Shown here one piece after another: positions 7,721 through 30,309 of a stretch of DNA of 64,000 nucleotides (position 1 is the first letter of the stretch; the number at the start of each line of letters is the position of its first letter). Source of the DNA: Paludisphaera mucosa (GTDB taxonomy: Bacteria > Planctomycetota > Planctomycetia > Isosphaerales > Isosphaeraceae); assembly GCF_029589435.1 (NCBI RefSeq), contig NZ_JARRAG010000002.1, forward strand, positions 3,162,001-3,226,000, read 5' to 3'. The notes beneath the pieces were generated by a model. The model had not been told where the DNA came from. It searched no databases and saw only the letters and a list, made by a program, of their open reading frames with translations. The position numbers were made by a program, and so were the translations under genes.

Positions 7721-9032
7721 GAGTCGCGCCAAAATAACTTGCCGGGATATTAGTGCCGCCTCGGATGGATCTCATAGTTCCATTCGCCGTGGTAGGCGTG
7801 TCGTTTGATGGTGCATCCCGCCAGCTCCTGGTCGCTGACTTTCCGGCCCTTCTCGTAGGTGCCTTCGTCCAGCCAGGCGTGGACCTCCAGTCCAGTCCCC
7901 GTGGTCGTCGCGCCGATCGACTCGACCACGACCTCCAGCGTCTCCAGCGGCGTCCCCCGCCAGTTCCGCGTGATGTGGCAGAATACCCGGTGCTCGATCT
8001 TGTTCCACTTGCTCGTCCCCGGCGGATAGTGGCAGACCTCGACGATCAGCCCCGTCTCGTCGGCCCACCTCTGCAACTCGGCCTTCCACAGCCGGCACCG
8101 CGAGCCGTTGCTGCCGCCGCTGTCCGCCGTCACCAGCACCCGCCTGGCCCGGCCATAGTTCGCCCGGCCCAGCTTCTCCCACCACCGGCGAATCGCCGCC
8201 ACCGCGAACTCGGCCGTGTCGTGGCTGATCCCCACCGACACGCCCGCCTCGTCGCGATGGATGTCGTACACGCCGTACGGCACCGCCTTGCCCAAGGCCG
8301 GGTCCGGGAAGTCGTGCGTCTTCACCGGGATCGGATCACCCTGCGGACGATACGTCCGCCCGGGATTCTTGAGGTTCCCCAGCACTTCCTTCTTCTTGGT
8401 GTCGACCGACAACGCCGGCTCGCCGCGTCGCCGACGGGCCCGGACCCGATCGCTGATGTGCCGGAACTGGCCGTCCCGGTCCGGGTGCTGCTTCCCCTCG
8501 CGCGTCTTGCGGTTTCCCTGCAGGCTGTAGTTCATCGCCGCCAGCATCCGCCGCACCGTGGTCGGGCTCACCGCGTACCCTCGCTGGCACAACTCGTCGG
8601 CCAGGCGATAGGTGCTCTTGATCGTCCAGCGCAGCGGGTTCGTCGGCGCCCCCCGGACCGTCGGCTCGATCAGCCGGTCCAGAGCCCCTCGCAGGGCGGG
8701 CTGGGTGGCCGCGTGGGGCTTGCGGCCGCCGCCGGCTCGCCGCTGGCGATGGCCGGCGAGCGGCTCGGGATCGTCGAGCTCCTTCAGGCCCGTCCGCACC
8801 GTGCGATCGGACAGGCCCGTGGCCTGGGCCACGGCCGTGATCCCGCCGCGCCCCAGGGCCCGGGCCTCGACGGCCGCCCAACGCCGCCGCCCACGCTCAT
8901 CCAGGTCGTCGAGCAGCGCCGCGTACTTGCTGCGAAGGGCTTCCACGATGTCAGGATCTTGCATCGCCGGACTGTCGCAGAAAGCCGGCGACCACAACAA
9001 GACCGTATCCGGCAACTTATTTTGGCGCGAGC
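7721..9032 (-). mobile_element. ISAzo13-family insertion sequence inside a DUF932 gene
   Basis: About 1.3 kb flanked by inverted repeats that share TCGCGCCAAAATAA followed by a TTGCCGG core (left end 7724 onward; right end reading leftwards from 9030). The internal gene is an intact ISAzo13-like transposase on the minus strand. The host gene is disrupted near its 3' end. The outermost bases are uncertain by a few nucleotides, and I could not define a target-site duplication. Confidence 0.85.
7750..8964 (-). CDS. ISAzo13-family transposase
   Basis: A 404-aa DDE transposase of the ISAzo13 type. An N-terminal helical region (LRSKYAALLDDLDERGRRRWAA) and HTH (AVAQATGLSDRTVRTGL) are followed by the family signature LADELCQRGYAVSPTTVRRM, SVDTKKKEVLGN, LVTADSGGSNGSR (catalytic Asp), and YPPGTSKWNKIEHRVF (catalytic Glu). 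I place the start at the ATG at 8964; the open frame continues upstream only because it happens to be in frame with the interrupted DUF932 gene, giving an artificial 686-aa fusion. It looks complete and possibly active. Confidence 0.88.
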   Translation of the reverse strand: MQDPDIVEALRSKYAALLDDLDERGRRRWAAVEARALGRGGITAVAQATGLSDRTVRTGLKELDDPEPLAGHRQRRAGGGRKPHAATQPALRGALDRLIEPTVRGAPTNPLRWTIKSTYRLADELCQRGYAVSPTTVRRMLAAMNYSLQGNRKTREGKQHPDRDGQFRHISDRVRARRRRGEPALSVDTKKKEVLGNLKNPGRTYRPQGDPIPVKTHDFPDPALGKAVPYGVYDIHRDEAGVSVGISHDTAEFAVAAIRRWWEKLGRANYGRARRVLVTADSGGSNGSRCRLWKAELQRWADETGLIVEVCHYPPGTSKWNKIEHRVFCHITRNWRGTPLETLEVVVESIGATTTGTGLEVHAWLDEGTYEKGRKVSDQELAGCTIKRHAYHGEWNYEIHPRRH

Positions 9033-9720
9033 CCTTACGTCCGGTCTGGCCACCCCGCAGGAGAGCCTCCTGAACGCAATTGAACGTCCGCCAGAGGTCC
9101 CGGCTGCAATCGGGCCGGGTCATGTCCTCGTCCCTGCGGGCGGTCAGGAGCCATGAGGCCGGGATATTCGGGTTCGGCTTCAGCTCCATAGCCTGGCGGG
9201 CGAAGTCCATCTGAACGGGCCGGGGCAGGATGATCTCCTTCCAGTCGGCGATCCGGTTCATGATGGTGGGCACGCCCTCCATGATCTGCGTCGTCGCGGC
9301 CATGATCTGGCTGCGGAGATCCCGGCTGCCCGAATGGCGAATTGAGAAACTGCCGAAGTCGCTGGACTGGACGATCATCCCATTCTCGCAGACGAACCTC
9401 ATCACGCCGCTGAAAACGCGGTAGGCGGAGGAGCGGTCGTGGCTGTTGACGAGCACCACCTCGGGCACCTCGCCCTGGCCGTCGAGGAAGCTGTTGTGGC
9501 GGAGCCTGAGCATGTGGCGGGTGAAGTCCCGCTTGCCGGGAACGCGGCTGCGGCTCTGCTTGGCCGAGGTGACCCGAAAGCCCTGCTCGGACATCATGTC
9601 GAGCACGTCAGCCGTTGGGATGAACCGGTAGGACTGGCTCATGCCCTCCCACGGGGTGGTGGCGAACACCGAGGGAGTGAGGGTGCGGAGCTGGTCGCGG
9701 GTGATGATTGAGCTGACCAT
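9033..9720 (-). pseudogene. DUF932 family protein, N-terminal part (IS-disrupted)
   Basis: Start ATG at 9720 is preceded by a strong AGGAGG. The encoded MVSSIITRDQLRTLTPSVFAT followed by SYRFIPTADVLDMM, RLRHNSF, EVVLVNSHDRSSAYRVFSGVMRFVCENGM and the C-terminal TFNCVQEALLRGG is the classic plasmid/phage DUF932 architecture. The gene is cut by the ISAzo13 element after roughly 229 codons, with the last 35 or so codons on the far side. DUF932 proteins are common on plasmids, phages and integrative elements and their role is unknown. The truncated product would be fused to transposase sequence. Confidence 0.85.
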
Positions 9721-9814
9721 CGGGAAGCCTCCTGAAAGATGCCTGTTTGCCTGGGGTTGTCGCGTCGAGCGGCAATTCACTTGGCAAACGGGGCGAAAGA
9801 CTCCCCCCATAGAA

Positions 9815-10094: not shown

Positions 10095-10994
10095 GTGGCA
10101 GCGAAAACAGTTCCGGGAAAGCACGACCGCAAGATCCTTTGGGGGATCAGCATCGCCGGGTTCGTGCTTTGGGTCGTATTGGCGTTCATGCCGAAGATCG
10201 CGCTGAATTGTTTCTGGTTCCAGCTGGATAAAGAGGAGGAAGTGAAACGGGTCGAATCGGTCCTAAGCCAACTCGGTACATTCGGAGACATGTTCGGGGC
10301 GCTGAATTGCTTATTTTCCGGGGCCGCATTCGTCGGGGTTGTCTATGCCGTCCTGCTGCAGCGTCGCGAATTGCACGACTCGCAGCAGGCCACCCAGCGG
10401 GCGGAGCGTGCGCTGGGGCTGCAGCATCGGCTGTCGCTCTACCAGAACATGGCTGATCACCATCGTCACCAGGAGGAACAGGCGGTCAGAGATCCTCTAC
10501 TTCGGGCTCGCTCCAGGGGTAGAGAACGAGCGTTTGCTGAACTGATGAGCGGCCTGCTACGAGAGTCGGAGGCTTTCATCCGGGGCGACGAGCCCACCGC
10601 CGAGCAGGCGCCCGTCTACTACGATCACCCCGCCCGCATCGGCCACCTTGCTTATCTTTATCGAGAGGAACGTGGCACGCTCCTCGATCCTCAGGAACCA
10701 TTTGGCCCGGTCCAGGAACTCCTCCTAGATCTGGCCGAAGAACTGGCTGCCTTGACCGAATTGGTCAGAGACAACCCTGCTGCCCAGGCGGGCCTGTTAG
10801 AGGCCGGTCATGCAGTGAATGCGGCAGTCCAGCCGCAAAACCTGCTGGAGCCTGAAACGACTGAGGAGGGCGTGCGCGCATTTCAGGTCGAGAACGCCGA
10901 TCTCGCATTTCATTCCGCGATTCATGCCGCCGCCAATCTGTTTCCTGCTGTTGACGTTCCCCCGCGCGCTCCTGAGGCTCCGCCTGCCGCCTGA
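10095..10994 (+). CDS. two-TM membrane protein, possibly abortive-infection-like
   Basis: A 299-aa protein with two N-terminal TM helices (ILWGISIAGFVLWVVLAFMP and GALNCLFSGAAFVGVVYAVLL) followed by QRRELHDSQQATQRAERAL, a cytoplasmic helical region. The FGDMFGALNCLFSGAAFVGVVYAVLLQRREL type of segment occurs in putative phage abortive-infection proteins and other two-TM effectors, so a defence role is conceivable. The rest (LYQNMADHHRHQEE, ELLLDLAEELAALTELV) is helical with no enzyme motif, ending in a Pro/Ala tail. GTG at 10095 is the start used. The structured RNA candidate lies immediately upstream. Confidence 0.6.
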   Translation: MAAKTVPGKHDRKILWGISIAGFVLWVVLAFMPKIALNCFWFQLDKEEEVKRVESVLSQLGTFGDMFGALNCLFSGAAFVGVVYAVLLQRRELHDSQQATQRAERALGLQHRLSLYQNMADHHRHQEEQAVRDPLLRARSRGRERAFAELMSGLLRESEAFIRGDEPTAEQAPVYYDHPARIGHLAYLYREERGTLLDPQEPFGPVQELLLDLAEELAALTELVRDNPAAQAGLLEAGHAVNAAVQPQNLLEPETTEEGVRAFQVENADLAFHSAIHAAANLFPAVDVPPRAPEAPPAA

Positions 10995-11248
10995 GCCGCC
11001 TGTACCTCCACGGTCGAAACGACCAGCTCGCCCGTCGGGGGCCTTGGTGAGACGCTTTCCAGAGGCGGCCTCGGCCCTGAGTTGCTCCCGGTATTCATCG
11101 TGACCCTCCCCGCGTCAGCGATGCGGAAGGCGGCGAAGCCGGTCCCAGAGGGACGGAACCCTGAAGCTCCGCGACGGCGCCAGCCGGGACGCCCATCATC
11201 TGGCGCGCTCCGGCCCCCTTCTGGTAAAATCCCACCAGGAGGATCGCC

Positions 11249-11578
11249 ATGCTCTACACCGAAGCGGATGGCTTCGCCTTCGCCCATGCCCGGACACAAG
11301 GCCGCGTGCTCATCGACGGCGGGCTCTTCACCCCGATCAAGGAGGACGGGATCACCGTAGGCGTCGAGCCGACCGCCGAGCTGCTGGAGCTGTTCAGCGA
11401 GCCGCCTCCGGCCGATCGGCTCTTCGACGTCCTGGTCCGCTTCTCGCTCTATCATGACATGGTGCATGACCACGGCCCGATGACGGAGGTCGTCGACGAG
11501 CTGCGGGCCATGGGGATGCGGAAGGGCGAATCAGGAACGCTCTGGAAGGCCGTCAGGCGTGGCCTGTGCGTGCCTTGA
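11249..11578 (+). CDS. hypothetical 109-aa protein
   Basis: Begins MLYTEADGFAFAHARTQGRVLIDGG, with a CCAGGAGGATCGCC Shine-Dalgarno region directly before the ATG. The first half looks beta-rich and the second half is helical (LLELFSEPPPADRLFDVLVRF). No family is recognised. Its 3' end overlaps the convergent minus-strand gene at 11553 by 26 bp, an arrangement typical of compact accessory elements. Confidence 0.55.
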   Translation: MLYTEADGFAFAHARTQGRVLIDGGLFTPIKEDGITVGVEPTAELLELFSEPPPADRLFDVLVRFSLYHDMVHDHGPMTEVVDELRAMGMRKGESGTLWKAVRRGLCVP

Positions 11579-11795
11579 GCACCTCGACGTCGTTCACGTC
11601 TATGACCTGCGGGATGCTGGGCGTGTCCCAATCGACGGTGACGGCCATGCTGCTGGTGAGAAGCTCGGTGTCGGCGACGGTGCCGAGGGCAACGAACAGG
11701 GCGGCGTTCTGCTCCGTCCTAGCCATTCCCAGCGGACGGTACTGCACCAGGTCGCCCGGCTTGATGTCCTTCACGCGGTAGCGAAAGCTGGTCAT
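11553..11795 (-). CDS. small hypothetical protein
   Basis: An 80-aa, probably beta-rich protein starting MTSFRYRVKDIKPGDLVQY. The phrase DIKPGDLVQYRPLGMAR suggests an SH3- or translation-domain-like barrel, but no family is assigned. The ATG at 11795 follows CCAAGGAACC, which decides the start over an upstream one. It overlaps the 3' end of the preceding convergent gene. Confidence 0.55.
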   Translation of the reverse strand: MTSFRYRVKDIKPGDLVQYRPLGMARTEQNAALFVALGTVADTELLTSSMAVTVDWDTPSIPQVIDVNDVEVLKARTGHA

Positions 11796-14195: not shown

Positions 14196-14615
14196 TTATG
14201 CTGCCTTGCCACGGCTCTCAGTGATCGCCTTGGCAGCAACCCGATCGGCTTCACCGCCATCACGTTCGTTCTGGTGCTTCAGCCCATACCCTGCATGGGT
14301 TGCAATGGTGAAGTTCAGAAGATCAACGACGTAGATGCCTCCGTCGCCGTGGGACATCTCCCTCAGATAGGACTCGTCGGTCTCTCTGAAGTCTGTCGGA
14401 AGGTTCCAGCAGCCGAGCGACAGATTCCCGTCGATGTCGTTATGCGCGATTCCGAGCAGGCGAGCAAAAGCGTATTGAATATCGCCTTCGCGGCCTTTCA
14501 TGACCTCCTTGAGGCGGTTGATGTAGTTCTGAACCTGCGGTGCGTGCCAGTGTAGGTACATTACCGGTGAGTATGCAGTGCCAGATTTCAAGATTACTAA
14601 AGCTCTATCTCCCAT
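14196..14615 (-). CDS. hypothetical protein
   Basis: A 139-aa protein starting MGDRALVILKSGTAYSPVMY, with ALVIL and YVVDLLNFTIATHAGYG strands and an AFARLLGIAHNDIDGNLSLG segment. It has no membrane helix or signal peptide and no family I can name. The RBS is AAAGGAATCCC before the ATG. It has its own TTGACA promoter upstream, so it is probably a single-gene transcription unit in the accessory module. Confidence 0.6.
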   Translation of the reverse strand: MGDRALVILKSGTAYSPVMYLHWHAPQVQNYINRLKEVMKGREGDIQYAFARLLGIAHNDIDGNLSLGCWNLPTDFRETDESYLREMSHGDGGIYVVDLLNFTIATHAGYGLKHQNERDGGEADRVAAKAITESRGKAA

Positions 14616-15325: not shown

Positions 15326-16120
15326 TCACTCGACTTCGAGCACCCTCTGAACGCGCGGCTTCCCGTAGACCGCCCCGCCGGTCAGAACGCGGAGATTCGG
15401 CAGGATCTGGGCCTCGCCGGACCCATGGGTGTGCCCGCACAGCACCGACATTTGCCGGTCCGGGGCGGCCGCCGCCGCCTCGACGAGCGCATCGCCAACC
15501 GCCTTGCAGCTGAAGAACGGCAGCCAGTTGTCGTCGGACACCTTCCCCTCGTGCCAGCAGGCCTCGCGGAAGGGCGGGACGTGAGTCAGGACGATAACGT
15601 GCCGGAACCGTGACAGGGCATCTGGCAGAAAGGCGCGGAAGTGAGCCGCCGCCTCGTCGCCGAGGGCGTGGAGTTTAGCGAGCCGTTCGTCCTTGCTCTC
15701 CCAGAACCCGCCGAACTCCTCGATCAGCTTGAAATCATTGAGCATCACGTCGGAGCGGTGGTAATCGCCGAGCCGTCCATCGCCCCAGCCGTCATGGCCG
15801 ACCAGGCAGGTGGTTTCGGTGAACGGCACGACCCCGGCGTCGGGCATCCAGTGCAGGTTCGCCACCTCGCGGCACGACTCGCGAATCTCAGCCCGGACGC
15901 CAGCGATCGACCCCCGGTAGAAGTCGTGGTTCCCGAGAACGAAGTAGACCGGCGCCCGATCAGCGAAAGCCCGCAGGTGGCCCGCCACGTCGTGGGCCTC
16001 GCCGATGTCGCCGGTGATGGCGAAGGCGTCGGCTTCGGGGAGCGAAGCGAAGAACGCCTTCAGCCCGGCATGCCGGAGGAAATTCAGGTGGATGTCGGTC
16101 AGCCAGGCGAGGCGTTTCAT
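15326..16120 (-). CDS. calcineurin-like metallophosphoesterase
   Basis: A 264-aa metallophosphoesterase with all metal-binding motifs in order: TDIHLNF (D-x-H), [11 protein letters not shown] (GD), [11 protein letters not shown] (GNHD), [10 protein letters not shown] (the LTH His) and LCGHTHGSG (GHxH). Start at ATG 16120 ([11 protein letters not shown]), since an upstream extension would be atypical for the family. The enzyme could act on phosphodiesters, nucleotides or phosphoproteins; in a mobile element a role in cyclic nucleotide or nucleic-acid processing is possible but unproven. It lies beside hypothetical accessory genes on the same strand. Confidence 0.85.
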
Positions 16121-16197
16121 CTTGCGGGGTCCTTCGGGAGTTCCCGCGGAGGGTAGGCCGGATCGGCGGGACGGGCAAGCAGTTGTTGAGGGGACCG

Positions 16198-16611
16198 TCA
16201 GACATTCCAGTCCCAGCCGTAATACTCGGGCTCCCCGCACGCCGCGTAATGCCCACGGCTCTGGTAGAGCTCGGCCTTGTCAGCCCCGATGACGGAAAAC
16301 CGACTATCTCCCCGCTGGTAGAGCACCTCCCACTCGCCGCCCCGGTCATGGGCCTGGCCGCCGATCAGCGTGGCAAAGCCGACGGCCCATGATTCACCGG
16401 AGCCCCATGGGGGCCATTCGGACCGAACGCCGCCGGAGGGGTCTTCGAGGCAAGCATCCTCATCGGCGTAGATCGCCCCGTGGGTGTCCCGGAACACAAC
16501 GTAACTGCCGTCCGCCCTGGTCACGCCGACGGCGTAGCCTCCGCATTCGGGCACTTGCAGCAGGCTGGCGTCGAGCACGATGGCCAGCGCGTAGGCCTTG
16601 TTTTCGATCAT
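16198..16611 (-). CDS. hypothetical protein
   Basis: A 137-aa protein from ATG 16611 ([20 protein letters not shown]), preceded by AAAGGAGGCCCC, which decides the start over an upstream in-frame Met. It contains beta-rich blocks [19 protein letters not shown] and [20 protein letters not shown] and a C-terminus rich in Tyr/Trp (YYGWDWNV). No domain is recognised. It lies immediately upstream of the metallophosphoesterase gene (77-bp gap), possibly co-transcribed. Confidence 0.55.
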
Positions 16612-16846: not shown

Positions 16847-17938
16847 ATGGCTCTCACCGGGAAGATGGTGAGGCTCATCAGAAAATTGATCGGTTTGCAT
16901 ATCAATACCCCAATTAGACAGAGTGTGCAGGTCGAGGAACTTTCAAGAGCGGATTCACGGCTGAATCCGCTCGCGCGAATGGTTGGCACGCCAACTGAAT
17001 GTCGTTTGCAACGATCGTTCTGCGCATGGTCTGACTTGCTTGGGTTTGGTCGCCCGTTTTCGGAGGCGGACTGGTTACCTAATCCGCAAGTCTGGCGTCA
17101 GCAAGCCGAGCGGGTAGGTGCCGCTTATCGTGACCAATGCAAGTTTCTTAGCGGCCCTGATGGCAGCTACATGCTGTTATTAAACGATGGGATCGTCCGG
17201 TCCATCACGTGCAGTCCTAGATTCGGAGTTGCGAGTCTCGCAAGTTGGACTAGATCCGCAGTTCAAGGCCATTATTTTGTCCGTCAAAGGGAGTTTTCGC
17301 AGAACCTGCCCGGCCCCAGAACGGTTTTATCGTCCGGTTGGGTTGCCGAGCATTCTTACTCTGAAGTGCGAGTCGACGATCTTGTTTTCGATTATACTCA
17401 CCAACAAAGTGGTCTTTCTAAGGTTGCCGAGGCACTTGGCAACCCTGTTATGGTGTCGAATCCTTCCCAGCTTCAACTTAATACGGCATTTTCGAGGGCC
17501 TATTTGCTCGACCAAGCCGGGAGCAAGAGTGGTATCTCGGGCTCAAGATTCTACCTCGATCAACGCTTCTTGGATGATGTAACCGATCTTCTAAAACACG
17601 ATGATCAAGTTTGCATTAAGATTGTGGAGCGCAATTCTGATATTCTATTTGCGGTAGAATACCTTGATTCAGCACTGCAGGGCGTCTCCATGGACACTGG
17701 TGACGTGCTTACAGCTGCGAGATGGAATCAAATACTGGAAACCGAGAAAGCGGAATCGGCCGCACGCGGTCACTCGGTATTTCGAAACGGCTCAGGATAT
17801 CGGCCTTGGGCCATGGGATTCCTGCTTGAATCTCCGGCCATTCAGGTGGATTTACCGAGCTTAAAGACACGAGTCTATCGCGTTCTTGGTTTTTTCCCTT
17901 CCGATGAAGATCCAAGAGAATTTATGTTTGAGCTTTAG
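16847..17938 (+). CDS. orphan protein with class III nucleotidyl-cyclase-like motifs
   Basis: A 363-aa protein of markedly lower GC content than its surroundings, standing alone between minus-strand genes. Residues 58-68 (FCAWSDLLGFG) resemble the first metal-binding strand of class III cyclases (D-x-x-G-F, Asp63); LLLNDGIVR has Asp114 about where a second metal Asp would fall; LPGPRTVLSSG (154-164) mirrors the RxGxxxG strand; and QLNTAFSRAYLLDQAGSKSGISG (210-232) is reminiscent of the VNxAxR catalytic helix, although the Asn-Arg spacing is one residue longer. Whether it makes a cyclic nucleotide is inference. A cryptic or degenerate cyclase is an alternative. Confidence 0.5.
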   Translation: MALTGKMVRLIRKLIGLHINTPIRQSVQVEELSRADSRLNPLARMVGTPTECRLQRSFCAWSDLLGFGRPFSEADWLPNPQVWRQQAERVGAAYRDQCKFLSGPDGSYMLLLNDGIVRSITCSPRFGVASLASWTRSAVQGHYFVRQREFSQNLPGPRTVLSSGWVAEHSYSEVRVDDLVFDYTHQQSGLSKVAEALGNPVMVSNPSQLQLNTAFSRAYLLDQAGSKSGISGSRFYLDQRFLDDVTDLLKHDDQVCIKIVERNSDILFAVEYLDSALQGVSMDTGDVLTAARWNQILETEKAESAARGHSVFRNGSGYRPWAMGFLLESPAIQVDLPSLKTRVYRVLGFFPSDEDPREFMFEL

Positions 17939-17996: not shown

Positions 17997-18845
17997 TCAT
18001 TCCAGACGGCCATTCTGCACCGACACCAGCAGATCCACCAGCGCGAACTTATCGACCTTGCGGAAGTCGATCAACTCAAGGTGCTCGATCACGAATTGCC
18101 GGAGGTCGGCCCGCTCGATGCTGTGTGCGTCCCCGCCTTGCTGGGGCAGTCGCTTGGTCCCCCGCCGGCTGCTCTTGATGATGCCTTTCAGGCAATATTC
18201 GGAGACGGTCTTGTTATCGAGGCCAAGCACCAGGGCAGCCGACCTGGCCGAGAAGGTTTCGGTGTTTCGCCGCGACAGGTTGATCCGCTTGGCCCGCACC
18301 ATGATCGCTGTCGCCGTGCGCGTGAAGCCATGGGCGCGGAATATTTCCGAGCACTTGTCAGGGTCGTGCAGGGGCACGCGTTTCATCAACTCGTCTTCAG
18401 CGGCCGTCCACTTCGGCTCTTTCTTTCTCGGGCGGGTCAAGCCGAGCCGCGTGCATCGGTCGCTGACCACCCAGCGGGGCTCATCCAACTGACGGGCAAG
18501 CTCCTTGACGCCGCTCAGATCGCCCTTCGGAACTTTCAGGGTTGGCCACATTTCGGTGATTTTGGCGTCGAGCGCGGCGAACTCCTCGCGGCTTCGGCTC
18601 TTTTTCTGCTGTTGACCGCTGCGCTTCAGACCGAGCTTCCCCACCTGGCCGTAGATCGCCGATTTCGTTCGGGCAGGCAGGAGGTTCGCACAACAGGACA
18701 AGACCTTCGTCGGGTAGTGTTCGCTCAGGATCTGGTTTTCCTCGTCCGTCCAGTACCGCTCGTCGCGATGGCCGGGGACGCGAGGAGCTGAAAGCCGGGG
18801 CTTGTGTTCCCGGCCCTTTTTGAAGAAGACGCGTTCGAGGGTCAT
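17997..18845 (-). CDS. SANT/Myb-like DNA-binding protein with C-terminal HTH
   Basis: A 282-aa protein with repeated SANT-like units: YWTDEENQILSEHYPTKVLS, a middle helical repeat (KELARQLDEPRWVVSDRCTRLGL) and KWTAAEDELMKRVPLHDPDK, then a C-terminal helix-turn-helix segment FSARSAALVLGLDNKTVSEY. Such triple-helix repeats occur in phage and plasmid DNA-binding proteins. Its ATG overlaps the TGA of the HerA-like ATPase (ATGA), so the two genes are translationally coupled and may form an ATPase/DNA-binding partner pair. Basic stretches (RSGQQQKKSRSR, RRGTKRLPQQ) support DNA contact. Confidence 0.65.
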   Translation of the reverse strand: MTLERVFFKKGREHKPRLSAPRVPGHRDERYWTDEENQILSEHYPTKVLSCCANLLPARTKSAIYGQVGKLGLKRSGQQQKKSRSREEFAALDAKITEMWPTLKVPKGDLSGVKELARQLDEPRWVVSDRCTRLGLTRPRKKEPKWTAAEDELMKRVPLHDPDKCSEIFRAHGFTRTATAIMVRAKRINLSRRNTETFSARSAALVLGLDNKTVSEYCLKGIIKSSRRGTKRLPQQGGDAHSIERADLRQFVIEHLELIDFRKVDKFALVDLLVSVQNGRLE

Positions 18846-20134
18846 TGGCTTTTCTCCCAGAAGAACTTGGGATTCGCCCGGACGCCCTCGTCGTTGATCT
18901 CTACCGCCCCGAATGTCTCCAGCAGGGCCAGCGCTGCGATTACGTCGTCTTCCGCCACATCGAGGTGCGCGGCAAGCCCCTTGACCAGCGTGCCGTCCGG
19001 CATGAGGCCCTTGAGCGCCTCGAACGCCCGTGCCGCCAAGGGGAACGAGTCGTCGCGGATGAACGACCGCACGGCCTTGAAGCCGGGAGACGCAGCCGAT
19101 TCCTGATCGTTCGTCTGGCTCATCTCCTCCAGTTCGTCGATCGCCAGCATGGATCGAGCCTCGCTTGCCTCGACTCTTTGCACCTCGGCCAAGCGGGGAG
19201 CCGCCCCGATGTGTCGGCTCTTCACGTCACCGATCCTGACCTCTACCGGGCTGAACGAAAAGGCGGGCCCAGCTGCCACGAACTCGCCGGGCGTGAGCGT
19301 CGGCAGGCGGTCGTAGGCCTTCCGCATGTCCCAGCCGATCGTCTCGGCCGCCCGCTTCACGTCGAGGTCGAGCGTGTTGATCCCGATCAGGAAATTGTGG
19401 ATCTCCGATACGACGGACTTGCTGAGGCGGGCAAGGCGCTGCGTCGCCAGCACGCCGACGAGCCCACGCTTGCGGCCGCGGCTCATCAGATCGACCATGG
19501 CCGCGATCGAGGCCTTTCGCACGGCCGATGATTCCTGCCCCTGCGTCCCCCAAGGGGCAAAAAGGTGGGCCTCGTCTACGGCCACGAGCGCAGGGTGCCA
19601 CATCTCCTGCGGGCACTCGACCAGGGCGTGGCAGATGGCGGCCACGGCCATCATCTGCTCCTCGCGTCGGCAGTCTGACAGGTCGACCACCATCGAGATG
19701 CGATTCACGCGGGCTCGCCGGGCCATTTCGGCTAAAGCCGCTCCCTTGAGCTTATGGCCTTCGATGTAGAGGTAGCCGAGCTCATCGGCAAGGGTTCGGA
19801 ACTCGCCTTCCGGGTCGATCACGATCTGCTGAATTCGCCCGGCGCTCTGCTCCAGCAGTCGGCGCATCGTCCAGGACTTCCCGGCTCCCGAAGCCCCCAG
19901 AATCAGCAGGCGGCCTTCCATGAGCTTGCCGAGGTCGAGGGAGACGTCGATGTTCTGATTCACATCGAGCTTGCCGAGCGTGATCGCGTCGGGGCCGGCA
20001 GGCTGGGGCGGCATCTCGGGGGCGGCTTGCGCCTCGTGGGGTACTTCGGTGGGTGCCGCTCTCGGCGGGGCTCCGTCATAGCTGACATTCTTGAAGGCGG
20101 CCGCGACGAGGGCTTCCTGATTCGGTGTGGTCAT
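18842..20134 (-). CDS. HerA/VirB4-like DNA-translocating ATPase
   Basis: A 430-aa P-loop ATPase with DUF87/HerA-type organisation: Walker A GASGAGKS (residues 80-87), IVIDPEGEF, Walker B VAVDEAHLF (about 184-191), a sensor segment GLVGVLATQRLARLSKSVV and the C-terminal arginine region. The last 100 residues are helical (LAARAFEALKGLM, DVIAALALLE), possibly a winged helix. HerA-like proteins pump DNA in repair or plasmid/phage transfer. The gene is coupled with a SANT-like DNA-binding protein downstream and follows a ParB-like gene on the same strand. Confidence 0.8.
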   Translation of the reverse strand: MTTPNQEALVAAAFKNVSYDGAPPRAAPTEVPHEAQAAPEMPPQPAGPDAITLGKLDVNQNIDVSLDLGKLMEGRLLILGASGAGKSWTMRRLLEQSAGRIQQIVIDPEGEFRTLADELGYLYIEGHKLKGAALAEMARRARVNRISMVVDLSDCRREEQMMAVAAICHALVECPQEMWHPALVAVDEAHLFAPWGTQGQESSAVRKASIAAMVDLMSRGRKRGLVGVLATQRLARLSKSVVSEIHNFLIGINTLDLDVKRAAETIGWDMRKAYDRLPTLTPGEFVAAGPAFSFSPVEVRIGDVKSRHIGAAPRLAEVQRVEASEARSMLAIDELEEMSQTNDQESAASPGFKAVRSFIRDDSFPLAARAFEALKGLMPDGTLVKGLAAHLDVAEDDVIAALALLETFGAVEINDEGVRANPKFFWEKSQ

Positions 20135-20182: not shown

Positions 20183-22117
20183 TTACGCGGCCTTCTTGCC
20201 CTTTTTCGCCTTGGTGGGGGTCGGCTCGGGAGCTTCCCTGAACGCCATGCCTTCGGGCAGCCAGTTCTTTATCCGCTCGCCCTGCTCAGGAGTCGTGCCC
20301 GGACGGTTCGGCTCGTTGAACACCTTGTGCAGTTCCCCCGCGATGTCGCCCTTCTTGGCATTCGCGTTGTTCCGGGCCCATTGCTCGCCGCGATCACCGC
20401 CGACAAGCTCCCTGCCGATCTCGAGCAACTGATCCTTCGTCACGCGGCCGAGGTAGGCATCCTTTGTCGGTCGCCAGTATTCCGCCACGTTCGCCCCCGT
20501 CTGTGACAGGGCCACATCATAGGCGGTCAGCTCCCCGCCGTTATCAAGCTTCGGCTGCAAGGTGAGGGCGACGGAGTAGGCCAAAAGGGCTTGCTTCTGG
20601 TAATCCGAGAGGCCTTGGAAGGCTGCGAACTGCGCCGCTTCCGTTTTGCCCTTCAACCAATCGGTTGGGAGTGCCTTCGACAACGGCTCCATCTGCGACC
20701 GGATGAAGCCACTGGCATCCGCGCTGGCGTTTCCCGCGAAGTTCCGGCTGAAAGAGACCTGCGGGCCGTCGTAGGTCGAACGCGCGGTCAGGGCGTTCTT
20801 CGCCGCCTTGAACACCAGCAGGTCGAACGCGATCGCCGGGTGCTTGGCGATCTCGGCCTGGGCCACGCTGAGGCGATAGGCTTCGAGATAGCGCTTCAGC
20901 GACTCGGACATGCCCTTGGGCTTTTCGGGCTCGTCAGGCTCCGCGTCGGCCCCTTTAGCCTTGGCGGCTGCCTTCTTGTCCTCCGGCCTCACCAGTCCCT
21001 TCTCGATGCGCAGCGTGCCGTTGCCGTCGATCGAGACGTAGCAGCCAGCGGTCTTCATCTCCTCCGGGTCAAACACAACGTAAGATTCGAGCTTTTCGTT
21101 CAATTCACCAAGTTGCTTTTCCAATACGTCGCGTTTCGCCTCAAGGGTTTCCGACAGGGCCTCGTCCTCGCCGTCGTCTTCGTAATAAGCCTGATCCGCG
21201 GCTTCAGACTCGGTTTCGAGCTTCGCCTTGAGGTCAGTCAGCTCCTGAGGCGCGTCGACCGGACTGGACTCGATTGATCCGCACCGACGCGTGAAGTCCC
21301 AATCATGCTCGATGGCGGTTTCGACCCATGCCCACCCTTCGCCCCTCAGCTCCTCGGCAGCTGCTTCGAGCTTTTCACCAGCGAGTCGGTGCAGCACATC
21401 CGGGTTCTCCAAGTAAACCCGGTCACCGAAAAGATCGTTCTTCGTGAACCCTCCGGCGGCTGTGTACGCCTCAAGGCCGACGAATTTCGCGAGTTTGTCA
21501 TTGCCGCTCACCGTGCCTTCGGTCAGGGCCCGGCGCACGGCATGCTCGTTCTTCTTGTCCCACTTATCCAGCGATTTATACACTTCCATCTGGCGCGTCT
21601 GGTCGTCCGTCACCGTAAACGCCATGAGGACTTCCAGCGTCAGGTTTTCCGCCCGGTATTCGGCCAGCAATTCCAGAGCGAGCTTGCCCAGCCGGAGGCG
21701 CTTCAGGACGTGCTTTTCCTCCACTCCGAAACGCTCCGCGATGAACCCTGCCGATTTGCCGGCCTTACTCAGCGCCGCAAACGCCTCGAACTCATCCGCC
21801 GGGTGCATGGCCTGTCGGACGATGTTTTCGGCAAGGCTCATCTCGGCGGCGTGTTCCTCGCTCACGACCTGACAGGGCACGGCGTGGTCTTCGGGGAGCT
21901 TACCCTCGGCTTGCAGGGACTTCATGGCTTCGAGGCGGCGAGCACCCGCGATAACGAGGTACTTGCCCTTCTTGCCCTCGGTGACGACCAGGTTCTGCAT
22001 CAGGCCGTGGGCGACGATGGACGACTTCAATTCCTCGTCCGCAGTTGCTGAAGCCGTTTTACGGACGTTGAGCGGTGATTTGACGAGTTTGGCTAATTCA
22101 ATGTATTGGTTTGACAT
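20183..22117 (-). CDS. large ParB/Spo0J-like protein
   Basis: A 644-aa protein with an N-terminal ParB/Srx-like nuclease-fold domain: SPLNVRKTASATADEELKSS, GKYLVIAGARRLEAMKSL and the CTP-binding-like AEMSLAENIVRQAMHPADEF (ENxxRxxxxPxxE), then an HTH (SAGFIAERFGVEEKHVLKRLRL). The long C-terminal half is acidic and coiled (ETESEAADQAYYEDDGEDEALS), and ends in a Lys-rich tail. ParB proteins bind centromere-like sites and clamp DNA; no ParA is encoded nearby. ATG at 22117 sits nine bases after AAGGA, so it is preferred to the GTG at 22123. Likely an accessory-replicon ParB. Confidence 0.8.
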   Translation of the reverse strand: MSNQYIELAKLVKSPLNVRKTASATADEELKSSIVAHGLMQNLVVTEGKKGKYLVIAGARRLEAMKSLQAEGKLPEDHAVPCQVVSEEHAAEMSLAENIVRQAMHPADEFEAFAALSKAGKSAGFIAERFGVEEKHVLKRLRLGKLALELLAEYRAENLTLEVLMAFTVTDDQTRQMEVYKSLDKWDKKNEHAVRRALTEGTVSGNDKLAKFVGLEAYTAAGGFTKNDLFGDRVYLENPDVLHRLAGEKLEAAAEELRGEGWAWVETAIEHDWDFTRRCGSIESSPVDAPQELTDLKAKLETESEAADQAYYEDDGEDEALSETLEAKRDVLEKQLGELNEKLESYVVFDPEEMKTAGCYVSIDGNGTLRIEKGLVRPEDKKAAAKAKGADAEPDEPEKPKGMSESLKRYLEAYRLSVAQAEIAKHPAIAFDLLVFKAAKNALTARSTYDGPQVSFSRNFAGNASADASGFIRSQMEPLSKALPTDWLKGKTEAAQFAAFQGLSDYQKQALLAYSVALTLQPKLDNGGELTAYDVALSQTGANVAEYWRPTKDAYLGRVTKDQLLEIGRELVGGDRGEQWARNNANAKKGDIAGELHKVFNEPNRPGTTPEQGERIKNWLPEGMAFREAPEPTPTKAKKGKKAA

Positions 22118-22155
22118 AATCACTATTCCTTAAAGCAGTTAGTGGTTTAGAAGGT

Positions 22156-24148: not shown

Positions 24149-24592
24149 GTGGCCAGGATCGTCACCCGCATCATCCTCGGCGTCGCCATGCTGGCCGCAG
24201 CCTGGCAGTCGTTCTCGATGTCGCTGCGCCGCCTAGAAGAGGCTCGAGGCCCAATCCCGGCGCAGTTTAGGAGCATTCAAGACTTGGATATCGACTTCTT
24301 CGACCGGCCTGACCCCAGGGATATCCCCACCACTCCCGAACAGTTAGCCAAGTATCGAGAAGCCTTTTGGCTTCAGCGATTCTCGCTGGCCACCGTCCTC
24401 CCCGGCATCGCCCTCATCCTGCTCGGCGTGCTGCCCACCATCGTCCCGCCCACTTTCCGGCTTCTGGTATGGCACTTCATCCCCGACTTCATGCGGAGGC
24501 ACGGCAATGACGCTGCTATCGAGATGGTTCCAGAATCGGCGGCCCCCGAAGACGTCCGACCCCCTGGACCAGAAGCTGTTCCGCTGGTCTGA
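24149..24592 (+). CDS. two-TM membrane protein preceding a coupling-ATPase gene
   Basis: A 147-aa protein starting at GTG 24149 (MARIVTRIILGVAMLAAAWQ), with a first TM helix or signal anchor, a middle loop of about 50 residues and a second TM (LATVLPGIALILLGVLPTIV). Its 3' end overlaps the start of the TraD-like ATPase gene by 86 bp, unusual but in a different frame and with a good RBS for the second gene, so coupling or co-assembly at the membrane is likely. Function unknown; perhaps a membrane anchor for the ATPase. Confidence 0.55.
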   Translation: MARIVTRIILGVAMLAAAWQSFSMSLRRLEEARGPIPAQFRSIQDLDIDFFDRPDPRDIPTTPEQLAKYREAFWLQRFSLATVLPGIALILLGVLPTIVPPTFRLLVWHFIPDFMRRHGNDAAIEMVPESAAPEDVRPPGPEAVPLV

Positions 24593-25971
24593 ACGCGACC
24601 CCTTCACCGTCCGCGACCTGCTGAACGGCGGGGTATGCGTGATCGGCCGGGCGGGCTCCGGCAAGACGTCCAGCTCGGGGAAGCTCCTCGGCAGGTCGAT
24701 CATCGGACTGCCCGGATCGGGTGGGCTCATCCTCGCGGCGAAGCCCGAAGACCTCGAGATGTGGCAGGCCATCTTCGCCTCGGCGGGTCGCTCGGAAGAC
24801 CTGCTCGTGTTCGGGCCGGAGCAGCCCCTGCGGTTTAACTTCCTCGGCTACGTGCTCGCCATGGGCGGGCTCACGCGGGACGTGACCCGCTGCATCACGG
24901 TCATCGGCGAGACGCTCCGGTCGGCAGATACCAAGGGCGGCGAGTCGGCCGATTTCTGGGAAGGCGAACAGCAGCGGATGATCTACAACGGCGTGGAGGT
25001 GGTGAAGCTCGCAACTGGTAGCGTCTCCGCGCCCGACATCCAGCGGTTCATCATGGCCGCCCCACAGAGCCCGGCGCAACTCACAGATGAAAAGTGGCGG
25101 GACGGTTTCTGCAACCAATGCCTCAAAGCCGCCTACATGCGGGGCAAGAGCCCCGTCGAGGAGCACGACTATCGTCTTGCCGTCGATTACTGGCTCGCCG
25201 AGTTCCCGACGATGGCGGATAAGACCCGATCGTCCATCCTGACGGGCGTCATGGGCATCCTCCATACCTTCAACGTTGGCGTGGTGCGCGAGCTCGTCTC
25301 GACGACCTCGAACTGCAGCCCGGACGACATGCTCAAGGGCAAGTGGGTCATCGTGAACATGGCGCCCGCCGAGTACGGCGACACTGGCGCGCTTGTCGCG
25401 GCGGGTTGGAAGTTCCTCACCGAGAAGATGGTGCTCCCGCCGTCATGCCGACGATTCGTCGAACGTCGTCACCATCTGGGCCGACGAGGCGGCGCAGTTC
25501 GTCAACAGCTTCGATTCGCTGTTCATCACGCAGTGCCGCTCGCACAAGGGCTGCCTCGTTTTCCTCACGCAGTCGCTGCACTCGTACTTCGGCGCCCTCA
25601 AGGGCGATACGGGGCGCAACCAGGCCGATGCCCTCCTCACCAACTTCTCGACGCGGATCATGCACGCGATCGGCGACGCGAAAACAGCGGAGTGGGCCAG
25701 CGAGATGCTGGGCCGGGAACTCGAGTCCTTCGTCTCCACGAGCAACTCGCCCGGTGAGCATCCCTTCGAGGACATCTTCGGAGCGAGCAAGGCGAGCACC
25801 TCGGTTTCCTTCCAGTACCAGCCCGCGTTACAGCCCAAGGTGTTCATGCACGGGCTCAGGACCGGCGGACTCGCCAACGACCTCACTTGCGACGCCGTGG
25901 TCATCCGGTCGGCGGAGCCCTTCAGCAACGGTCGGAGCTGGATGATCGTCGCGTTCTCTCAGAAAGACTGA
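24507..25971 (+). pseudogene. TraD/VirD4-like coupling ATPase, frameshifted
   Basis: The first frame (24507 on) has MTLLSRWFQN, a Walker A GRAGSGKT (residues 47-54) and AKPEDLEMWQAIFASAGRSE, and breaks at about 25443. The second frame carries NVVTIWADEAAQFVNSFDSL (Walker B) and CRSHKGCLVFLTQSLHSY, the sensor/Arg region of TraG/TraD-type coupling proteins, to the stop at 25971. One extra T at about 25443 (CCGCCG-T-CATGCC) explains the shift. Overall length of about 487 aa after correction fits the family. It could be a real pseudogene, a sequencing error or, less likely, programmed frameshifting. Such ATPases link conjugative DNA to a secretion channel. Confidence 0.75.
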
Positions 25972-28506: not shown

Positions 28507-28522
28507 TTTGGAGGACAGAGCA

Positions 28523-29767
28523 GTGGCCGCGATCTTCAAGCGAGGTCGGGACAAGGGGAAGAAGACCAAGCCCTATGTGATCCAGTACACGGACCACGAG
28601 GGTAACCGCCAGTTCGCCAAGGGCTTCACCGACAAGGCGCTCACCGAGCAGCTGGCCGCGAAACTCGAAAACGAGGTGCTGCTGCGGAAGCGGGGCATGA
28701 TCGACCCGGCCCAGGAGCGGCTGCTGGCGATCAAGCAGAGTCCGATCACCGAGCATCTCGATGCCTTCGACCGCTCGATGGCGAACAACACTCCGAAGCA
28801 CCGTAAGTTGACCATGACCCGGGTGACCCGGGTCATCGAGGGTTGCGGGTTCCTGACGCTGGCCGAGATGGACGGCGAGAAGGTCGTGGACTGGCTGAAC
28901 GAGTTCCGCGAGGAGGAGGACATCGGCGCGCGCACCTACAACCACTACCTGCAAGCGGCGGACGCGTTCGGCAAGTGGCTGGTGTTGACCAAGCGGCTGC
29001 CCGGCAACCCGCTGGTGGGCATGGAGCGGCTGAACGCCGAAACCGACGTGCGGCACAAGCGGCGGGCGCTCACGCCCGACGAGTTCGCCCGGCTGGTCGA
29101 GGCCGCCCGTAATTCCGGCGTCGAGGTGCAGGGTTACGACGGTGAGATGCGGGCGAGGATTTACCAGATCAGCTACCTGACCGGGCTTCGCCGTTCCGAG
29201 CTGGCGAGCCTGACCCCGAACTCGTTCAAGCTAGACGATCCGCAGCCAACCCTGACGGTCGATGCCGCCTGCTCGAAGCACCGCCGCAAGGACGTCCTGC
29301 CGATGCACCCCAAACTGGTCACGCTGGTGCGGGGGTGGATCTCGGGGCTCGATCCCGATGAACCGCTTTTCTATCGCCTCGCTCGGCGCAAGACCTACAC
29401 GATGGTGCAAAAGGATTTGGAGCGGGCTGGCATACCCTACGAGACACACGAGGGGCTGGCCGACTTCCACGCGGCGGGGCGGCACTCCCACATTACGAGA
29501 CTGGTCAGGTCGGGCGCGTCGATCATGGAGGCGAAGGAACTTGCCCGGCATGCCGACATTTGCCAGACGGCCAAGTACACCCACATTGGCATGGAGGACA
29601 GGGCGGAGGCGTTGGCCGCGCTTCCGTTCCCGCTGGCTCCGGCGGTAGTGGAGGCGCTGGTGGAGGACGCCGACCTACAGGCGGTAGTCACGGCGTGGCC
29701 AAGATTGTCCGAGGAAATCAGGCGGCAAATCCGGGAGCTGGCGGCCTCGACATCGACAGATAGGTGA
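28523..29767 (+). CDS. tyrosine recombinase (phage-type integrase)
   Basis: A 414-aa site-specific recombinase. The N-terminal SAM-like/AP2-like region (YVIQYTDHEGNRQFAKGFTD) is followed by a core-binding domain and the catalytic domain, with R223 in YLTGLRRSELASL, the RHSHITRLV box (H323-R326) and HADICQTAKYTHIG (His343, nucleophile Tyr352). I use GTG 28523, which follows GGAGGACAGAGCA, over an upstream TTG. It ends 178 bp before the 3' end of ssrA, consistent with integrase-mediated insertion at the tmRNA gene. Confidence 0.92.
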   Translation: MAAIFKRGRDKGKKTKPYVIQYTDHEGNRQFAKGFTDKALTEQLAAKLENEVLLRKRGMIDPAQERLLAIKQSPITEHLDAFDRSMANNTPKHRKLTMTRVTRVIEGCGFLTLAEMDGEKVVDWLNEFREEEDIGARTYNHYLQAADAFGKWLVLTKRLPGNPLVGMERLNAETDVRHKRRALTPDEFARLVEAARNSGVEVQGYDGEMRARIYQISYLTGLRRSELASLTPNSFKLDDPQPTLTVDAACSKHRRKDVLPMHPKLVTLVRGWISGLDPDEPLFYRLARRKTYTMVQKDLERAGIPYETHEGLADFHAAGRHSHITRLVRSGASIMEAKELARHADICQTAKYTHIGMEDRAEALAALPFPLAPAVVEALVEDADLQAVVTAWPRLSEEIRRQIRELAASTSTDR

Positions 29768-29895: not shown

Positions 29896-29945
29896 ACGTC
29901 GTTGGTTGTCACCGCCAGTCAGGAGCTAGCAGTTGGGGTAAAGAG

Positions 29946-30309
29946 TGGAGGCGGCGGGAATTGCACCCGCGTCCCGAGAAGCTTCAGCGAGGGCATCTAC
30001 GTGCGTAGCCGGTCATTTGATTGTCGGCGTCAGGGCTCCGGTCGGCAGGATCCCTTTCGGCTTAGCTCATCATGAATTTCGCCCGGGCTTCAACAAGCGG
30101 TTTGGCTCAGGCTATCCCGAATTGGCGTCCCTGGCCGAGTCTCTCGGGAGAAGACTCGTCGCAGGGCCGTTCACTGTTTTCAGGCAGCGAGACGGAGACC
30201 AACAGTGTTGTTGGCAGTTAAGTTTTAGTCGGCTTTTTACGAGGCCTGCTGACCAACCTCGGCACGCCACCGTTCACTTCGGACATCCGGTCGATCCTGG
30301 TTCGCCCCC
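29946..30309 (-). ncRNA. ssrA: tmRNA (ssrA)
   Basis: About 364-nt one-piece tmRNA on the minus strand, which rescues stalled ribosomes. The 5' GGGGGCG pairs with 3' CGCCTCC to form the 7-bp acceptor stem (one G-U). The reading frame for the tag, complement of 30180-30215, encodes ANNTVGLRLAA and a stop, ending LAA as usual. A 5'-like AACCAGGATCGACCGG and a 3' GGGACGCGGGTGCAATTCCCG T-arm follow the standard plan. The T-loop has UGC where UUC is normal, and CCA is not encoded. The element integrase lies just beyond the 3' end. Confidence 0.9.

Follow-up and report, generated by a model that had tools for sequence, protein, structure and literature searches.

A rare gene with a predicted class III nucleotidyl-cyclase fold in an apparent integrative element of Paludisphaera mucosa

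A 64,000-nucleotide stretch of the Paludisphaera mucosa genome (Planctomycetota; contig NZ_JARRAG010000002.1, positions 3,162,001 to 3,226,000), hereafter the window, carries a low-GC gene whose product, judging from predicted structures, almost certainly has the fold of class III nucleotidyl cyclases. Our favoured reading, held tentatively and at somewhat less than an even chance, is that it encodes a stand-alone enzyme of this fold that integrative elements and plasmids carry from one bacterium to another. Taken separately, metal-dependent nucleotide chemistry seems rather probable, as does a role against phage or foreign DNA. A more specific proposal, of a one-gene immune or anti-mobile-element enzyme that constitutes a new branch of this fold, whose base pocket differs from those of known adenylate, guanylate and pyrimidine cyclases and whose unrecognised nucleotide product acts via an unlinked receptor or direct toxicity, is doubtful. 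The family is a rare, unnamed branch of the class III fold and is not to be classed as Pycsar, the known class III cyclase-fold defence, which pairs a cyclase with an effector. The gene is as follows.

16847..17938, + strand: stand-alone class III cyclase-fold gene, 363 amino acids, recognised from its open reading frame (ORF), its relatives and its predicted fold

The bounds of the ORF are exact (ATG start, TAG stop), the gene is present in one copy in the 8.2 Mb genome, and the genes flanking it on either side lie on the opposite strand. A preliminary description, made from the sequence, had called it AT-rich and compositionally foreign, which the composition confirmed: its GC content was 0.503, against 0.662 for the window, and its GC content at third codon positions (GC3) was 0.495, against 0.63-0.82 in seven neighbouring genes. 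The N-terminal ~40 residues (16847-16990) were lacking in the closest relatives and poorly predicted, which leaves the start codon in doubt; the true start may lie downstream of the annotated ATG.

The case for a cyclase rests on structure because family libraries and profile comparison gave no signal. In an AlphaFold model of the window protein (predicted local distance difference test score, pLDDT, 68.7 overall and 73-95 in the ten-residue blocks of the core, 51-170 and 211-270), strands and helices followed the class III cyclase order; residues 1-49, 277-318 and parts of 170-206 were poorly predicted. Foldseek matched this model to 46 PDB chains at E≤1e-3 (best 7.7e-5), the best 50 rows listed being all adenylyl or guanylyl cyclases, and the best Z-score was 15.0, to Rv1264 (172 aligned, 3.6 Å; VIA-align), with 12.1 to the Anabaena uridylate cyclase 8jsz (200 aligned, 6.2 Å). 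A relative from Hyphomicrobium, 25% identical to the window protein (L009; relatives are designated by locus), was modelled at a pLDDT of 86.2 and a predicted TM-score of 0.79. Its model matched 51 chains at E≤1e-3 (best 2.1e-6), the best 50 rows listed again being all cyclases, with Z-scores of 15.4 to human AC5, 15.2 to Rv1264 and 13.5 to 8jsz (185 aligned, 3.3 Å). The two models are not fully independent, because nearly the same alignment underlies both. Each nonetheless predicts a class III cyclase rather than an unrelated fold, which supports the cyclase fold proposed in the earlier interpretation; its further suggestion of a Pycsar-like system was not supported, as set out below.

The putative catalytic residues fall in the following segments.

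17027..17035, + strand: W61-S62-D63, putative first metal-binding Asp at the end of beta 1 (W61 and D63 invariant in 15/15 intact members; strand 53-64)
17183..17191, + strand: N113-D114-G115, putative second metal-binding Asp in the beta2-beta3 turn (invariant; between strands 107-112 and 115-121)
17318..17338, + strand: R158-x5-G164 strand (beta 4) with the probable phosphate-binding Arg (invariant; 44 residues after D114)
17480..17497, + strand: N212-T-A-F-S216-R217 at a helix start, the likely counterpart of the N-x3-R motif (N212 invariant; helix 213-227)

All motifs picked out beforehand were thus present, namely W61-S-D63-L-L-G-F, N113-D114-G, R158-x4-S-G164 and N212-x4-R217, although the last exceeds by one residue the N+4 Arg spacing of class III cyclases (position 217 is R/K in 15/15). 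Excerpts of one study list seven residues for class III cyclases, comprising two metal-binding Asp, a transition-state Asn and Arg (there numbered N3144 and R3148), a terminal-phosphate Arg and a base-selecting pair (PMC6592433). D63 and D114 match the two metal-binding Asp: both were kept in all 15 intact members, as their proposed role in the preliminary description implied, and in the model D63 terminates beta 1 and D114 sits in the turn joining beta 2 to beta 3. Conservation shows the motifs to be no mere coincidence: just eighteen positions were invariant over the intact members, including W61, D63, N113, D114, G115, R158, G164, Q210 and N212; these members, the window protein among them, are the 17 alignment rows minus L021 and L022, which were dropped because the N-terminal part carrying D63 has decayed. 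Over all 17 rows, N113, D114, G115, R158, G164 and N212 were still invariant, D63 was conserved in at least 90% and W61 was unlisted. Member L029, outside this alignment, retains the same W, D, NDG, R, G, Q and N. From its strand and spacing, R158 is probably the terminal-phosphate Arg: it follows D114 by 44 residues, and the matching Arg of seven canonical cyclases lies 44-51 past the second Asp. The distance of 49-51 from D63 to D114 in intact members differs from the 44 of those seven cyclases, and ~18-32 extra residues separate the Arg strand from the Asn helix. The spacing pattern used here fitted 7 of 16 canonical sequences, picked an earlier Arg in L001, L007, L010 and L019 and returned a spurious row for the decayed L022, so the aligned column was relied on.

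Contrary to the earlier view of the gene as an orphan, relatives were found in Bacillota and Pseudomonadota, together with a broken, frameshifted copy in a metagenome-assembled genome (MAG) of Terriglobia. The closest came from Heliobacterium chlorum and Paenibacillus vini (33-34% identity in the best segment, 36% and 39% over the family alignment), followed by an Oscillospiraceae MAG and then Alphaproteobacteria, and the search of the phylum of Heliobacterium added one further relative (genome G582, member L029). Identity to the window protein ranged from 21 to 39% among the other 14 intact members. In a tree of 16 members the window protein grouped with four Bacillota-side members (support 100/100); given several long branches and a long-branch-join warning, the tree was used only for the split between Bacillota plus window and the alphaproteobacterial members.

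The family is rare and sporadically scattered. Searching with the window sequence recovered only itself in 294 genomes of its own phylum and in 99 relatives. The family profile was found in 1 of 392 genomes of that phylum (the window's own), 2 of 398 in the phylum of Heliobacterium (one of them the seed) and, in the class of the Hyphomicrobium MAG, in the seed alone among 385, with up to six candidates scored per genome, so that misses are possible in these large searches. A collection of 84,980 species, one genome each, gave 57 pattern matches, 18 of them relatives, and tblastn against 72,556 plasmid records gave seven, all from Sinorhizobium, Rhizobium or Blastomonas, at 26-29% identity across 53-65% of the window protein. 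No relative turned up in three scans of viral contigs or in tblastn of phage records with the L004 member (E up to 0.01) and the L007 member (E up to 5), and the viral structure library gave no match at E≤1e-3. Besides their occurrence on plasmids, relatives lie beside integrases (L006, L014, L021), a TrwC relaxase (L023) and, identified by eye, serine recombinases (L008). They are under purifying selection, with a ratio of nonsynonymous to synonymous substitution rates (dN/dS) of 0.11-0.22 in the six pairs with computable dS, some of which share members and are not independent; one further pair was saturated. Decay is suggested for three copies, L021 having lost its N-terminal part, L022 having an altered N-terminus and L023 a frameshift, and assembly error in MAGs may explain this appearance. 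Against Pfam, NCBIfam and PADLOC at E up to 10, the window protein gave chance-level rows only (Lactonase, E 0.2; Cas11, E 0.034), and the 17 members gave nothing consistent against Pfam, PADLOC and PHROGs at E up to 5, the NCBIfam search covering the window protein only. Among titles and abstract openings of the open-access literature, no paper on such a family was found.

Association makes a role in signalling defence, also raised in the preliminary description, plausible, because relatives occur in defence-rich loci. The gene upstream of the member, a Fic gene in L009 and an AAA_13/AAA_21 gene in L019, overlaps it by 4 bp, and an AbiH gene lies 31 bp upstream of the L008 member. By Pfam, other neighbours include a Schlafen-type helicase (L010), DUF4062 (L015), WYL (L013), EcoRII-C with a UvrD helicase (L021), and SIR2 with a STAND-like gene, the latter under its curated cut-off (L063); by annotation they include AbiEii, ABC-three-component genes and a reverse transcriptase (L001). 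Among 113 neighbour ORFs of 14 members (at least 150 amino acids, within 6 kb), 175 PADLOC models matched at E≤1e-10, the best at 1.2e-267 among the matches listed (the best 25 of 175), which include Lamassu, AbiE, Avs3a and candidate PDC systems. The corresponding count for 110 control ORFs was 16 models, the best at 3.3e-32 (helicase, QueC and similar).

Several points weigh against our reading, beginning with this comparison. Its control comprised 12 stretches from two of the same genomes only; it counts models, not genes, with one system shared by L004 and L015 and one neighbour by L014 and L018; and it used 14 of the 24 loci, the window, L020 and L023 being omitted, as were the near-copies L002, L011, L012, L016 and L017 and the short contigs L006 and L022. 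In 4 of the 12 loci examined with Pfam (L001, L007, L014, L018) the genes tested had no family, even if L001, where two genes were tested, holds the annotated reverse transcriptase; the surroundings of L020 were, by eye, ordinary host genes; and Pfam named no defence gene among ten window neighbours examined. On the structural side, the AlphaFold models were built from 15 sequences only, and Foldseek TM-scores by query were modest (0.19-0.34 for the window model, 0.34-0.52 for L009). A Pfam cyclase match was found in 0/17 members at E up to 5, and hhalign compared the family with class III cyclases (16 canonical sequences extracted from 30 loci of the window's own phylum) at a probability of 0.1%, against 0.07-1.67% for 20 column-shuffled controls. 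We claim no sequence link to class III cyclases because this score is at noise level, and the family profile likewise found no cyclase among PDB sequences. The active site also departs from the canonical one. Although the Asn is kept in 15/15, its equivalence being suggested by sequence and helix start, the transition-state Arg expected at N+4 is replaced by Ser/Thr in 15/15, with Lys/Arg at N212+5 in 15/15. Four residues before D114, at what we take to be the base-selecting Lys position, stands Leu in 14/15 and Phe in 1/15, where several canonical cyclases have Lys; the base-selecting Lys/Asp or Glu/Cys pair is lacking. The metal and phosphate half of the active site thus appears retained and the base-selecting half lost.

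Because the transition-state Arg and base-selecting Lys positions are replaced, the enzyme could be inactive. It is unlikely, in our judgement, that the protein is a pseudo-cyclase, binding metal-nucleotide without cyclising it and serving as a nucleotide sensor, regulator or sponge. These substitutions and the loss of class III resemblance from sequence profiles are what such a protein would show, but a dead site would have no need of two metal-binding Asp, a probable phosphate Arg and an Asn that stay invariant at 21-39% identity, and K/R is retained at N+5. Membership of a subfamily is a different matter: two of the defining catalytic features are absent and the family matches no cyclase profile, so a cyclase-like working is surer than assignment to any named cyclase subfamily. 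We regard it as quite unlikely that the gene is a non-defence accessory gene, for example for element maintenance, stress signalling or conjugation regulation. The Pfam-named window neighbours (ParB, HerA-like, metallophosphoesterase and GcrA-like genes), none of them defence genes, and the relaxase adjoining L023 point that way, but PADLOC matches near 14 relatives exceed those of the control stretches and the distribution is rare and sporadic.

Two further accounts give the protein a partner. It could control an effector encoded in the same operon and varying among loci (Fic, AAA ATPase, AbiH and others), as the 4-bp overlaps and the nearby AbiH gene suggest, along with a 150-amino acid frame that overlaps the L001 member and looks TIR-like by eye, without a Pfam match. 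No partner recurs outside closely related loci, however, and both genes flanking the window gene lie on the opposite strand, so that we hold this account to be decidedly improbable. An ordinary Pycsar system, with a PycC making cyclic UMP or cyclic CMP and an effector, has in its favour the fold shared with AnPycC 8jsz (Z-scores 12.1 and 13.5). The preliminary description had ventured a Pycsar-like function, which found no support because no shared effector recurs and the only PADLOC match is at chance level: when the neighbours in 24 loci, of which the window is one and some have short flanks, were all compared with one another, no shared effector emerged; the 17 members gave no PADLOC cyclase match at E up to 5, their only PADLOC row being a chance-level one to Cas11; and Pfam (E≤1e-3) named no cyclic nucleotide-binding or TIR domain in 20 genes near relatives and ten near the window gene. 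The PycC base-pocket residues given in excerpts of PMC11224242 are unshared, save for an aromatic residue at the second position before the first Asp. Ordinary Pycsar is accordingly very improbable.

The groups of neighbours that did recur in this comparison were of several kinds: genes shared by closely related loci; integrases, recombinases and transposases; a gene that looked Vsr-like by eye, common to L021 and L023; a large gene without a name, present in both L019 and L021; and a few weak or short matches such as those at 28-30% in L003, L018 and L063. No group contained a window gene. Other features of these loci were seen in passing. In L063, two like-reading copies of a transposase-like gene (1-670 and 10284-11726) flank member L029 and the SIR2 and STAND-like genes, a layout that resembles a composite transposon with defence cargo. 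A ~1360-amino acid protein with a P-loop by eye lies beside the member in L018 (8910-13010, - strand) and L017 (8910-12980, - strand); it had no Pfam match in L018 and is possibly an unnamed STAND/NACHT-type protein. In L007 (4387-12655; Paenibacillus vini), the member sits within an array of short genes that includes three similar, by eye NUDIX-like genes.

Returning to the favoured reading of a stand-alone cyclase-fold enzyme, the protein would act as a head-to-tail homodimer, the arrangement of other class III cyclases. In one subunit, D63 and D114 would bind two divalent metals and R158 would hold the triphosphate of a nucleoside triphosphate, while N212 and K/R217 of the partner subunit would position the ribose and alpha-phosphate, allowing attack by the 3'-OH to give a cyclic nucleotide and pyrophosphate. 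The predicted base pocket is hydrophobic (W61, L110, L112, V117) and is missing the purine-selecting Lys, which makes ordinary cyclic AMP or cyclic GMP, formed by the usual route, an unlikely product. Phage or other foreign DNA would switch the enzyme on, and its product, or the nucleotide it consumes, would act via an unlinked host receptor, proposed because no effector gene accompanies the cyclase-fold gene. If true, a solo, widely scattered family of this fold in such loci would imply that either unlinked receptors read its nucleotide signal or the cyclase fold is self-sufficient. The family is directly testable because it is small and single-domain and has clear catalytic residues.

The gene probably resides in an apparent integrative element at the transfer-messenger RNA (tmRNA) gene, ssrA, whose recognisable parts are listed here.

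18842..20134, - strand: HerA-like ATPase of the element (PF01935)
20183..22123, - strand: ParB-like gene of the element (PF02195)
25393..25971, + strand: C-terminal part of a TraG/TraD-type coupling protein (192 amino acids, TraG-D_C; PF12696)
28508..29767, + strand: tyrosine integrase of the host element (PF00589, E 4.6e-17)
29945..30309, - strand: tmRNA gene, probable integration site (ARAGORN; 3' end faces the integrase)

The ParB-like, HerA-like and TraG-type genes lie between the integrase and the cyclase-fold gene; the coupling protein may span two frames (24507-25971, + strand), the preceding, overlapping frame of 416 amino acids having no Pfam match. An 18-base segment from the end of the tmRNA gene, sought as a second attachment site, had no other exact match anywhere in the genome, which leaves the left border of the element undefined. 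In an empty-site search among 45 genomes of the taxonomic family, the DNA-binding gene of the element at 17997-18845 was found in this genome only. Promoter and terminator scans returned nothing beyond chance level, and repeats flanking the gene were trivial ones only. The metallophosphoesterase at 15326-16240 was considered as a cyclic-nucleotide partner and rejected because its composition is host-like (GC3 0.82), it lies on the strand opposite to the cyclase-fold gene, and Pfam named no such gene among 26 neighbours of relatives. Elsewhere in the window, 14196-14615 (- strand) is a second low-GC gene (139 amino acids, GC 0.543, GC3 0.63, no Pfam match), and 7750-9810 (- strand) is a single frame of 686 amino acids joining an N-terminal DUF932 to a Rhodopirellula-type transposase (PF07592), perhaps by in-frame transposon insertion into a DUF932 gene.

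Compared with known systems, the family resembles class III cyclases (PF00211; Rv1264, CyaC, Cya2, and mammalian adenylyl and guanylyl cyclases) in its predicted fold (Z ~15), its beta/alpha order, and the two metal-binding Asp, Arg strand and Asn helix in the same order. Unlike them, it has Leu in place of the base Lys, Ser/Thr in place of the N+4 Arg, wider Asp-Asp spacing (49-51 vs 44), a longer stretch between Arg strand and Asn helix (by ~18-32 residues) and no profile match. It also resembles PycC (AnPycC 8jsz, EaPycC, BcPycC) in being a single-domain class III fold linked to anti-phage loci. Excerpts on AnPycC (F60/D62) and EaPycC (F100/D102) place an aromatic residue two before the first Asp, the only base-pocket feature described there that the family shares, as Trp here (PMC11224242). 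Unlike PycC, it has no shared adjacent effector, no PADLOC cyclase match and other residues around the second Asp. Enzymes of the mCpol and GGDEF types resemble the predicted fold of this family in being palm-type, and carry a GGDEF or GGDD metal motif in a hairpin. According to excerpts of another study (PMC12657218), the Panoptes enzyme OptS (mCpol) and GGDEF enzymes are rare, widely scattered makers of nucleotide signals in defence loci, and our family is similarly rare, scattered and often near defence genes. Unlike these, it carries an invariant NDG in the hairpin, and the best 50 PDB rows listed for each model are class III cyclases.
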